A model generated the notes under the pieces. That model was not told the origin of the DNA and searched no databases. It saw only the letters and a program-made list of their open reading frames with translations. The position numbers and the translations under genes are program-made. DNA of 64,000 nt from contig CANMLW010000013.1 in assembly GCA_947498705.1 (NCBI GenBank), positions 1 through 64,000 of the forward strand, read 5' to 3'. The DNA is from an uncultured Aquimarina sp. (GTDB lineage: Bacteria > Bacteroidota > Bacteroidia > Flavobacteriales > Flavobacteriaceae). This document shows, one piece after another, positions 42,700 to 58,670 of this stretch; the first letter of the stretch is position 1, and every line of letters starts with the position of its first letter.

Positions 42700-43096
42700 G
42701 GGGTCGACTGGTTTTGACAGCGAGATTAATAGAGTGGTAAGCACGTCGAGCGCTGGGATATAGCTCGTAAATATCATATTTCAACTTTTTTAAACGGCGA
42801 GAATAACTACGCCCTAGCTGCATAATCCGAATCGTAGTAGGATAGTGCCTCGGTTCGCAAGGCGAACAAGCAGGATACCTCTCAAGAGCCTTGGTTTACG
42901 GCGATTGGTTATGAGGTATCGTAAAAGTAAACCTAGAGATTATAGGATCTTGATATAATTTCGAAATTTAATCGAGAATAAGCGATACGTTGGCGGTTTT
43001 TGGTCTTTCATATCGACGAAAATTAAACAAAAACTAAACGTGTAGAAAGCTGTTGTATTACTTGTTTGGACGAGGGTTCGAATCCCTCCGACTCCA
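42700..43096 (+). ncRNA. ssrA: tmRNA (SsrA)
   Basis: The 5' end GGGGTCGACTGGTTTTGACA and the 3' tRNA-like end GGTTCGAATCCCTCCGACTCCA pair to form the acceptor stem and T arm of a tmRNA. The tag frame at 42796-42825 reads GGC GAG AAT AAC TAC GCC CTA GCT GCA TAA, giving GENNYALAA, a typical Bacteroidota tag ending in the ALAA degron. The CCA end is not encoded: CTT follows the discriminator A. The RNA rescues stalled ribosomes together with SmpB. Its 3' end is the start of a tandem repeat. Confidence 0.97.
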
Positions 43097-43388
43097 CTTC
43101 AATCCCACCAATATGGTGGGATTTTGCGTATCCGGGGGATTCGCCAATGCGCCAACTGGCTCCTGCGCTAGATTGCCGCATAGGGCAATCCTTAACGCTA
43201 CGGCCCTCTCCGACTCCACTTCAATCCCACCAATATGGTGGGATTTTGCGTATCCGGGGGATTCGCCAATGCGCCAACTGGCTCCTGCGCTAGATTGCCG
43301 CATAGGGCAATCCTTAACGCTACGGCCCTCTCCGACTCCACTTCAATCCCACCAATATGGTGGGATTTTGCGTATTTGGGGATTCGCC
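43086..43388 (+). repeat. 122-bp tandem repeat duplicating the tmRNA 3' end and terminator
   Basis: The block starting CTCCGACTCCACTTC recurs with a period of 122 bp (key G at 43090, 43212 and 43334). Two units are complete and a third breaks off near 43388. Each unit holds the 3' arm of the tmRNA acceptor stem, the hairpin AATCCCACCA/TGGTGGGATT, and a GC-rich segment with further stems (GATTGCC/GGCAATC). Apparent ORFs across the array on both strands come from the repeat itself. Confidence 0.9.
43101..43125 (+). terminator. tmRNA terminator (first of three copies)
   Basis: AATCCCACCA and TGGTGGGATT pair around ATA, followed by TTTTG, 5 bp after the mature tmRNA end. The same hairpin recurs 122 and 244 bp downstream. 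Confidence 0.8.
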
Positions 43389-50401: not shown

Positions 50402-50409
50402 TATATTTG
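50402..50409 (+). promoter_or_regulatory. Predicted -7 box of the trp operon
   Basis: TATATTTG matches TAnnTTTG and lies 18 bp before the leader peptide ATG, placing transcription start near 50416. No clear -33 element was found. Confidence 0.6.
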
Positions 50410-50426
50410 GCTCAATATTTAAAAAA

Positions 50427-50489
50427 ATGAAAGTAATCTTAACAAATAATTGGTGGTGGTCTTCTCTAAGCGAAAATGTCGTGAGATAG
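50427..50489 (+). CDS. trpL: trp operon leader peptide
   Basis: This 20-residue frame (ATG 50427, TAG 50487-50489) contains NNWWWSS: three consecutive TGG codons at 50451-50459. The stop codon lies 31 bp before a U-tailed terminator that precedes trpE. The peptide's only plausible role is to let ribosomes sense charged tRNA-Trp. It is too short to be found by ordinary gene calling. Confidence 0.9.
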   Translation: MKVILTNNWWWSSLSENVVR

Positions 50490-50555
50490 ATCCTATTGTT
50501 ATAAGTTAAGTTAACATATCAAAGGCTTGTCAAATCACGACAAGCCTTTTTTTAT
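50477..50555 (+). promoter_or_regulatory. trp attenuator: antiterminator pairing and terminator
   Basis: The terminator is AAAGGCTTGTC (50521-50531) paired with GACAAGCCTTT (50539-50549) followed by T residues. Its loop and right arm contain TCACGACA (50535-50542), which is the exact complement of TGTCGTGA (50477-50484) near the end of the leader frame. A ribosome stalled at the Trp codons leaves 50477-50484 free to form the antiterminator; a ribosome reaching the stop codon covers it, and the terminator forms. Confidence 0.85.
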
Positions 50556-50656
50556 TGCTTTTTTAAAGAAAAGCAAAACAAATAATATTATTTCTAAATG
50601 TTGCACAATAAAATAGTAACATGGCACATTAGAAAAATGATAAACAAACATGTAAA

Positions 50657-52054
50657 ATGAGCTATACTCTAACCACACATTTCAAACAAGTTCTAGCAGA
50701 TACTTTCACTCCTGTAAGTGTATATCTAAAGATTAGAGATCGTTTTCCCAACAGTTTACTTCTAGAAAACAATGATTATCGAGGTAGTGAAAACAGTTTT
50801 TCATATATCTGCTGTAATCCTATTGCTACCATTAAAATTGAAAACGAAACGATTTATCAATCTTTTCCTGACAAAAGTATCCAGAAAACACCGATAACAG
50901 AAAAGACCAACATTCCGCAGGTAATTGAACAATTTGGAAATCAATTTAAAACCACTCAAAGCGATTTTAAATTTATAAACAATGGCTTATTTGGATATAT
51001 TTCCTATGATGCTGTTAGGTATTTTGAAGATATCAACATCTCAAAAAAAGAAAGCTCTCTAGACATACCCGATATGCAATACACGGTATATCAAAATATC
51101 ATTGCTATCAGTAATTTTACAAATGAAGCCTATATTTTTGCTCATTGCTACAACTCAGAAAGTAACATCCCAGAAATAGAATCGCTGCTTAAAGTCAAGA
51201 ATTTTGCTTCTTATAATTTTACTACTGTGGGTGATACCACATCAAACCTAAATGACGAACAATATAAAGAGCATGTCGCTCTTGCCAAAAAGCACTGTCA
51301 TAGAGGAGATGTATTTCAATTGGTATTATCTAAGCGTTTCTCTCAGAAATTTAAAGGAGACGAGTTTAATGTGTATAGAGCTTTAAGAAGTGTTAACCCA
51401 TCACCTTATCTTTTTTATTTTGACTATGGTGATTTTAAAATATTCGGAAGCTCTCCTGAAGCACAACTTGTTGTAAAGGACAATATTGCCGAAATCCACC
51501 CTATAGCAGGAACATTTAAGCGTACCGGAAATGATGAACAAGATGCAGAACTTGCTAAAAAATTATCGGTCGATGAAAAAGAAAATGCAGAACATGTAAT
51601 GTTAGTAGACCTTGCTCGCAATGACTTGAGCAGAAACGGAAGTAATGTTACTGTCGAAAACTATAGAGAAGTTCAGTTTTATTCGCATGTAATACATCTG
51701 GTAAGTAAAGTAACCGGAAAAAAGCATGACCACACTACTACCATGCAAGTGGTTGCCGATACTTTTCCTGCAGGAACATTAAGCGGAGCTCCAAAACACA
51801 TGGCTATGCAATTAATAGAAAAGTATGAAACAGTAAATAGAGATTTCTACGGAGGTGCCATTGGGTTTATGGATTTCTCTGGCAACTTTAATCATGCCAT
51901 TATGATACGTACATTTTTAAGTAAAAATCATCAACTGCATTGGCAAGCAGGTGCAGGATTGGTTAATAACTCTAAAGAAGAAAGCGAACTTCAGGAAGTA
52001 TATAACAAATTAGGTGCACTCACAAAAGCATTAGAATTAGCAGAAGAAATATAA
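50657..52054 (+). CDS. trpE: Anthranilate synthase component I
   Basis: This 465-residue chorismate-utilising enzyme makes anthranilate with ammonia from TrpG. Conserved blocks include GDVFQLVLSKRFSQKF, FGSSPEAQLVVK, HPIAGTFKRTG, LVDLARNDLSR and TFPAGTLSGAPKHMAM. The N-terminus shows the feedback region LLENNDYRGSENSF. It is first in an eight-gene operon behind the attenuator. trpG follows 49 bp later as a separate gene, not a fusion. Confidence 0.97.
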   Translation: MSYTLTTHFKQVLADTFTPVSVYLKIRDRFPNSLLLENNDYRGSENSFSYICCNPIATIKIENETIYQSFPDKSIQKTPITEKTNIPQVIEQFGNQFKTTQSDFKFINNGLFGYISYDAVRYFEDINISKKESSLDIPDMQYTVYQNIIAISNFTNEAYIFAHCYNSESNIPEIESLLKVKNFASYNFTTVGDTTSNLNDEQYKEHVALAKKHCHRGDVFQLVLSKRFSQKFKGDEFNVYRALRSVNPSPYLFYFDYGDFKIFGSSPEAQLVVKDNIAEIHPIAGTFKRTGNDEQDAELAKKLSVDEKENAEHVMLVDLARNDLSRNGSNVTVENYREVQFYSHVIHLVSKVTGKKHDHTTTMQVVADTFPAGTLSGAPKHMAMQLIEKYETVNRDFYGGAIGFMDFSGNFNHAIMIRTFLSKNHQLHWQAGAGLVNNSKEESELQEVYNKLGALTKALELAEEI

Positions 52055-53781: not shown

Positions 53782-54306
53782 ATGAAAGTTGAAACCTATA
53801 AAATTTTCGGGTATAAAGAAAAAGAAACTGGATTGTTGATTGCAGAAAATGAAGACTGGGTTTTGGTAAAACATATCCCTGTAGATTATGTAGTAGATGG
53901 ATTTAAACTTTATAGGAAAAATGCAATTAAAAAACGAAAGTCTAAAAAGAAAGAAGATAAAATAGCACGTGTACTGGCATTAAAAAACATAGATACAAAT
54001 ATACCCGATGGTTTTACATTTACATCGGTTATAGAAACATTACAATGGTGTGAGAACACATACGGTTTATTCGAATTTCAGGATAGTGATGCAACATTAT
54101 TTTATGGAAAATTAAATCAATCAGAAGGCACAGACTTTTGTATAGACACCATAGACGCAGATGGAGTTATCGAAAAAGAATACGATTATGAATTTTCTGA
54201 AGAAGAAATCGAGATAATCACTTTTGAAACTGACTATTTCGAATCTGTAAGACTATTAATGAACGACCAATTAAAAAAACAAGGGCAACTTACAAAAGTA
54301 GTATAA
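53782..54306 (+). CDS. Uncharacterised protein encoded inside the trp operon
   Basis: This 174-residue soluble acidic protein has no signal peptide. The first part (YKIFGYKEKETGLLIAENEDWVLVKHIPVDYVVDGFKLYRK) looks like a small beta-barrel or SH3-like domain. A Lys-rich linker (KKRKSKKKEDK) leads to an alpha/beta region, and the C-terminus is very acidic (SEEEIEIITFETDYFESV). I do not recognise it. It lies 20 bp after trpD and 30 bp before trpC, on the same strand, so it should rise and fall with tryptophan synthesis. It could be a regulator, or a passenger inserted without breaking the operon. Confidence 0.85.
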   Translation: MKVETYKIFGYKEKETGLLIAENEDWVLVKHIPVDYVVDGFKLYRKNAIKKRKSKKKEDKIARVLALKNIDTNIPDGFTFTSVIETLQWCENTYGLFEFQDSDATLFYGKLNQSEGTDFCIDTIDADGVIEKEYDYEFSEEEIEIITFETDYFESVRLLMNDQLKKQGQLTKVV

Positions 54307-58007: not shown

Positions 58008-58670
58008 ATGGAAATGAACGAAAACGAAAAACAAAAATTAATAAATCACATTGCTGGACAAACTATTGTTCATAAGAATCCATTTGATCATCTTGAAACT
58101 CCAAAAAACCATAAACAAATTGATCAAAATTTTCGTAATAAATTTATAATTCCGATTTATATGAATCTTTTGGGAATAAGCCAATATGAAGAAAAACTAA
58201 AAACGGAAACGGAAAAAATAATTCATAAAGTTGATAAGAATGTTGTTTCTCAAATGTTAGGAGACTTTAATTGGAGAACAAGAAGTACAGGTGCTTTCTT
58301 TTCAGCGATCAAAGATTATGTGGATTTTCAAGACTCGATTGGAATTTTACTTTTAAAAAGTGAAGTTACTTATGCAGGAGAATCATATTGTCTGGCTATG
58401 GCGGAATTTAACAATACAAAATCGATCAAATTATTAAATGAATATTTAGATTATTACTTGACAAAACCTGAGCTTTGGTTTGATCAAGATCAAGCAATTG
58501 GAGCTATAGCTTATTTGGACAAAGTGAATAAAACAAATGAATTGGAAAAGCACAAATCTAAATGGACTGAATTTGTTGTTAATAAACCAAATTGGGATTT
58601 GAATAAAAGTATTGAGTGGTTTGAAAAAAATCTCAATTGTTTAAAAGAAATTAAAAAATACGTCAGCTAA
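58008..58670 (+). CDS. DUF6000-family protein
   Basis: This 220-residue soluble helical protein has the pattern VVSQMLGDFNWRTRSTGAFF, SEVTYAGESYCLAMA, LLNEYLDYYL and DQDQAIGAIAYLDKVN, which I recall from DUF6000. These blocks are HEAT-like helical pairs. The function is unknown; related proteins occur as orphan genes in accessory regions. The stop codon directly abuts the 3' end of a group II intron fragment on the other strand. Confidence 0.75.
   Translation: MEMNENEKQKLINHIAGQTIVHKNPFDHLETPKNHKQIDQNFRNKFIIPIYMNLLGISQYEEKLKTETEKIIHKVDKNVVSQMLGDFNWRTRSTGAFFSAIKDYVDFQDSIGILLLKSEVTYAGESYCLAMAEFNNTKSIKLLNEYLDYYLTKPELWFDQDQAIGAIAYLDKVNKTNELEKHKSKWTEFVVNKPNWDLNKSIEWFEKNLNCLKEIKKYVS

Follow-up and report, generated by a model that had tools for sequence, protein, structure and literature searches.

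A predicted ribosome-mediated attenuator of the trp operon in Flavobacteriaceae, with an antiterminator directed at the loop and descending arm of the terminator

Within a stretch of 64,000 nucleotides from an uncultured Aquimarina sp. (contig CANMLW010000013.1 of GenBank assembly GCA_947498705.1; hereafter the window), the leader preceding a complete trp operon is, judging from its sequence, very probably a ribosome-mediated transcription attenuator of that operon. The elements of this leader, their spacing, conservation and covariation, and the operon context were observed directly, and the leader is an ordinary member of the Rfam family RF01692 (Bacteroid-trp). Its one unusual point, absent from an earlier account made from the letters alone (the sequence-only reading), is that the antiterminator lies on the terminator loop and descending arm. 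On balance we favor a mode of antitermination by loop capture, in which the freed strand would pair with the loop of the terminator and with the apical part of its late-emerging descending arm while leaving the ascending arm free, so that hairpin nucleation would be blocked, or a pseudoknot trapped, within a narrow time window, rather than the 5' arm being sequestered. This detail is conserved and, in the literature consulted (without most subscription journals and supplements), seems to be undescribed. If true, loop capture would constitute a distinct, family-wide antitermination architecture; the geometry, if confirmed, would mean that antitermination is possible without the ascending terminator arm, and would provide a compact design for synthetic attenuators.

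Elements of the leader

The following features were located in the window, all on the + strand:

50402 to 50409, +: putative -7 promoter element TAnnTTTG, TATATTTG (read from the sequence)
50407 to 50531, +: match to Rfam RF01692, Bacteroid-trp (58.3 bits, gathering threshold 49)
50427 to 50489, +: leader peptide ORF MKVILTNNWWWSSLSENVVR, 20 codons plus stop (sequence; homologous leader ORFs)
50451 to 50459, +: three Trp codons in a row, putative sensing site (sequence)
50458 to 50496, +: 1:2 hairpin, pause-type or anti-antiterminator (minimum free energy, MFE; RF01692 consensus structure)
50477 to 50484, +: strand 2, antiterminator 5' strand, TGTCGTGA (sequence; covariation with strand 3)
50521 to 50553, +: intrinsic terminator with an 11-bp stem (sequence; MFE; compensatory changes in relatives)
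50535 to 50542, +: strand 3, antiterminator 3' strand, TCACGACA (terminator loop plus the first 4 nt of the descending arm)
50657 to 52054, +: trpE, opening gene of the operon under control (ATG at 50657)

The leader frame opens with an ATG at 50427 and closes with a TAG at 50487-50489, and the terminator stem is formed by AAAGGCTTGTC (50521-50531) and GACAAGCCTTT (50539-50549) around the loop AAATCAC (50532-50538), with a run of seven Ts at 50547-50553. The sequence-only reading had named the -7 box, the 20-codon leader peptide with its WWW run and the U-tailed terminator before the trp operon, and direct reading bore out both their coordinates and their features. Its 8-bp antiterminator was likewise confirmed, strand 2 being the exact reverse complement of strand 3, a match to loop and arm that was reached by 0.6% of shuffles. 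The whole leader folds with an MFE of -38.2 kcal/mol, versus -20.1 +/- 3.2 kcal/mol for shuffled sequences (z -5.7).

In that MFE structure, positions 50458-50473 (segment 1) pair with 50479-50496 and thereby conceal strand 2. A 1:2-type hairpin overlapping strand 2 is also the sole structure of the RF01692 model, and strand 2 was paired upstream, in the 1:2 fold, in 170 of 174 relatives versus 49% when segment 1 was shuffled, which also worsened the mean energy by 3.5 kcal/mol; the earlier statement that no separate pause hairpin could be seen is thus contradicted. The pairing register of this hairpin moves among lineages (e.g., with CTTACG or CTTTCGA as partners), and therefore covariation in a single register was not convincing, with 59.7% of cells paired and similar values in slid controls. 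The core of strand 2, TCGTGA, hardly varies among leaders, which can be explained because strand 2 takes part in both the 1:2 and the 2:3 helix and often holds the stop codon.

Family membership and distribution

The RF01692 match spans the full model (positions 1-131), is the only copy in the genome of the window, and lies upstream of a trp operon in a member of the Bacteroidota, as expected for this family. With Bacteroid-trp the leader has in common trpE downstream, a Trp-rich leader frame and the consensus 1:2 hairpin; the 3' end of the model corresponds to the ascending terminator arm, and the model includes neither the terminator helix nor the pairing of strand 2 with the loop.

The element was found in 141 of 199 Flavobacteriaceae genomes (a sample of about one per genus) and in 42 of 395 genomes sampled across the phylum, with trpE downstream in all 131 first-round loci. 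In one further locus (L155, reverse complement, from about base 1544), the first gene after the Bacteroid-trp leader reads as trpB, not trpE. Among the 58 Flavobacteriaceae genomes lacking an RF01692 match, 45 had a TrpE-like match at E <= 1e-40, some of these being distant paralogues only; from the 30 best of the 45, 29 loci had upstream sequence, and in 28 of these a frame with WW or WWW precedes trpE. Leader ORFs with WW or WWW were also present in all 33 nearest relatives, mostly Aquimarina. This addresses a refuting condition that had been set with the sequence-only reading, namely homologous trp operons without the Trp codons: such operons are rare.

Bacteroid-trp RNA was published in 2010 by Weinberg et al., whose main text gives the motif in Table 1 only (PMC2864571). 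Its occurrence before the trp operon of F. psychrophilum was discussed in 2019 (PMC6414381), and leader-peptide attenuation was proposed for amino-acid operons of that species in 2021 (PMC9723704). According to the passages covered, the F. psychrophilum leaders resemble that of the window in placing a Bacteroid-trp RNA 5' of the trp operon, and the same passages contain no base-pair-level mechanism. The element as such was therefore already on record when it was noted as deserving description. RF01692 has been catalogued in this phylum since 2010, and a literature search outside most subscription journals and all supplements found no account of the trp attenuator of Bacteroidota at the level of base pairs; Lopatovskaya et al. 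(2010) may cover it.

Comparative evidence for attenuation

A set of 182 leader loci was assembled, including a few duplicates from overlapping searches. The Trp run consists of three codons in 163 of these leaders and of two in the other 19. In 153/182, the start of strand 2 lies 17-19 nt past the last Trp codon. The position of the stop codon relative to strand 2 is variable, mostly between -6 and +9 nt. In 180/182 leaders, the element TAnnTTTG occurs within the 90 nt that precede the Trp run, against a background of 6% per 90-nt stretch, and the offset in the window (-49) coincides with the peak of the distribution. Furthermore, complementarity between the antiterminator strands scored 6 or higher in 167/180 leaders versus 4.8% of shuffles.

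Covariation was counted in 98 aligned sequences, with 500 shuffles and slid registers as controls. The terminator, in which 96% of cells were paired, showed 34 compensatory cells in 6 pairs (shuffle mean 5.9; slid registers 0-5), and the antiterminator showed 25, also in 6 pairs (shuffle mean 6.5; slid registers at most 13), each exceeding all 500 shuffles and every slid register. Examples of antiterminator compensation include TCGCGA/TCGCGA (L184), TCGCAA/TTGCGA (L101), TGCGAT/ATCGCG (L179) and, among the nearest relatives, TCGTGT/ACACGG (L238). Three more remote class members (L132, L137 and L155) follow the same plan with other letters, and covariation across these and the Flavobacteriaceae supports this mode of trp switching.

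The features that characterize an attenuator were thus found together: a short frame rich in Trp codons, an intrinsic terminator ahead of the first structural gene, an antiterminator competing with it through a conserved and covarying 2:3 helix (with partial stem overlap), and a 1:2 hairpin that would mask strand 2 in the absence of translation, as indicated by the fold in relatives versus control. The proposal of a ribosome-mediated trp attenuator is therefore well supported by the sequence and its conservation across Flavobacteriaceae.

Antiterminator geometry and energetics

The trpL leader of E. coli resembles the window leader in its Trp codons, in the 1:2, 2:3 and 3:4 alternatives, and in a stop codon whose position lets the terminating ribosome cover strand 2; sequence homology to it (Rfam Trp_leader) was not detected among matches to E = 10. 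In the E. coli trp system it is the ascending arm of the terminator that enters the antiterminator, whereas in the window leader the loop and the top of the descending arm do so. Across leaders, the antiterminator 3' strand consists of the terminator loop, usually extended by 2-3 nt at the start of the descending arm; in 168 of 180 leaders it involves three or more loop nucleotides and no more than one ascending nucleotide. Complementarity of score 6 or more to the ascending arm was below chance (1.7% of leaders versus 8.5% in shuffles), and an antiterminator of the E. coli type was rejected for Flavobacteriaceae, a few deep-branching loci excepted. Strand 2 is displaced in four deep-branching loci, whose TrpE shows 51-56% identity: L078, L096 and L105, the exceptions just mentioned, have GTGAGA/TCTCAC, involving the loop and two ascending nucleotides, and L131 has a short GTGA-type complement only. 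These four possibly represent an intermediate geometry.

In the window, only four of the 11 terminator pairs (50539-50542) contain antiterminator nucleotides, and the lower stem could therefore coexist with the antiterminator as a pseudoknot. With the antiterminator on the loop and descending arm, exclusion would thus be kinetic or topological, not strict: the competition between terminator and antiterminator described by the sequence-only reading gains a covarying 2:3 helix, and its wording "mutually exclusive" is too strong in static terms. An energy ladder on the nascent RNA gave the antiterminator as the MFE fold for 3' ends 50538-50546 when segment 1 was masked, and the terminator from 50547 only. 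RNA polymerase conceals about 12 nt of nascent RNA, and therefore the antiterminator would remain favored along the whole U-tract. When a ribosome was placed at the stop codon, the terminator alone was left in the calculation. For the full-length RNA, the calculation favored the terminator over the antiterminator by about 2.4 kcal/mol, which implies that switching must be kinetic.

A related scheme has been predicted for the fhsA motif (PMC11109978), where a pseudoknot between the terminator stem-loop and the preceding hairpin could block termination; that motif is a proposed folate-ligand sensor of Leptotrichia and environmental sequences, described with no mention of a Trp-rich leader frame. 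The trpB motif of the same study was set aside as a Firmicutes/Fusobacteria element, by its description unrelated to Bacteroid-trp.

Proposed mechanism and alternative explanations

As predicted from these elements, promoter use, ribosome stalling, footprints, kinetics and the response to tryptophan would combine as follows. With ample Trp-tRNA, the ribosome would pass the WWW run to the stop codon at 50487 and cover strand 2 (50477-50484), allowing the terminator (50521-50549) to fold and transcription to end before trpE. Under Trp shortage, it would stall at 50451-50459 and mask segment 1, and strand 2 would leave the 1:2 hairpin and capture nucleotides 50535-50542 while RNA polymerase is releasing them; the terminator could then not nucleate in time, and trpE would be transcribed. 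If the leader is not translated, strand 2 would stay concealed in the 1:2 hairpin, making termination the default.

The pairing between strand 2 and the terminator loop might instead be a pseudoknot, with 4-6 bp to the loop, that is compatible with the finished terminator and tunes or stabilizes it, with the ribosome acting in some other way. The overlap mainly with the loop, which leaves seven lower terminator pairs possible, would suit such a structure, but the descending arm usually contributes 2-3 nt to the pairing, the pair at columns 33-109 tracks changes in the terminator arm (GC to AU in 4 sequences and GU in 2), the distance to the Trp codons is conserved, and the energy ladder on nascent RNA favors antitermination; we regard this explanation as improbable, albeit the most serious of those considered.

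Far less probable is a constitutive terminator or a small RNA, with the upstream frame tuning translation or transcript stability and no sensing of Trp. A leader ORF and a terminator by themselves would look alike under this explanation, but WW or WWW is present in essentially every genus, always 5' of trp genes, and the antiterminator covaries. Direct sensing at the same terminator, by a riboswitch, a T-box or a TRAP-like protein site, appears the least probable of all, even though the near invariance of TCGTGA goes beyond what base pairing needs: RF01692 alone scored above cut-off, T-box, trp riboswitch and Proteobacterial Trp_leader models were absent among Rfam matches to E = 10, no TRAP-type repeated NAG triplets were seen by eye in the leader, and the role of strand 2 in two helices together with the stop codon can account for the conservation of the core. 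Ribosome-mediated attenuation thus remains the preferred explanation.

Operon and other leaders in the genome

Downstream of the attenuator leader, the genes are ordered trpE, G, D, a 174-aa ORF (ORF174), C, F, B and A, and the operon extends to 57871; the TrpE of the window shows 92% identity to that of Aquimarina species, which places the DNA in this genus or very close to it. ORF174 (53782-54306), a member of the operon between trpD and trpC, had no match in NCBIfam or Pfam.

Two further amino-acid leaders were observed on the minus strand of the same genome. The first (L202, G000:C1:919400-920600) precedes the his operon with the leader peptide MKNKNLHHHHSYIFAQAW followed by a stop (frame opening at base 802 on the reverse complement) and a terminator AACCCGTTTGAGCAAGTTCAGACGGGTT with a T-run, HisG starting about 171 nt past the leader ATG; from its sequence, this leader before hisG is likely a His attenuator. 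The second (L206, G000:C1:1077500-1079500) encodes the Phe-rich peptide MNNLFTFNRFYFFFFYFKSKIGIAM followed by a stop (frame opening at base 1641 on the reverse complement) and, with a terminator, lies upstream of a prephenate-dehydratase, PDT-domain (pheA-type) gene (PF00800), a layout that makes a Phe attenuator likely. Genome-wide loop capture for other amino acids was rejected, as the complements in both leaders fall on the ascending arm instead: GCTCAGGCG/CGTTTGAGC in the his leader (p = 0.06), and the best complement in the phe leader (p = 0.3, not significant alone). Loop capture would therefore be a feature of the trp leader, not of all attenuators in this genome, as far as a single genome with weak statistics indicates.

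A candidate leader of ilvD, MYIIIFNNPFTM, is probably spurious because the hairpin lies inside the frame, and a search of the genome of the window for the pattern TTTGTCRTGA gave no useful match. Elsewhere in the window, a DUF6000 protein is encoded just 3' of trpA (58008-58670), and a tmRNA gene lies at 42700-43099 (RF00023, 139 bits).
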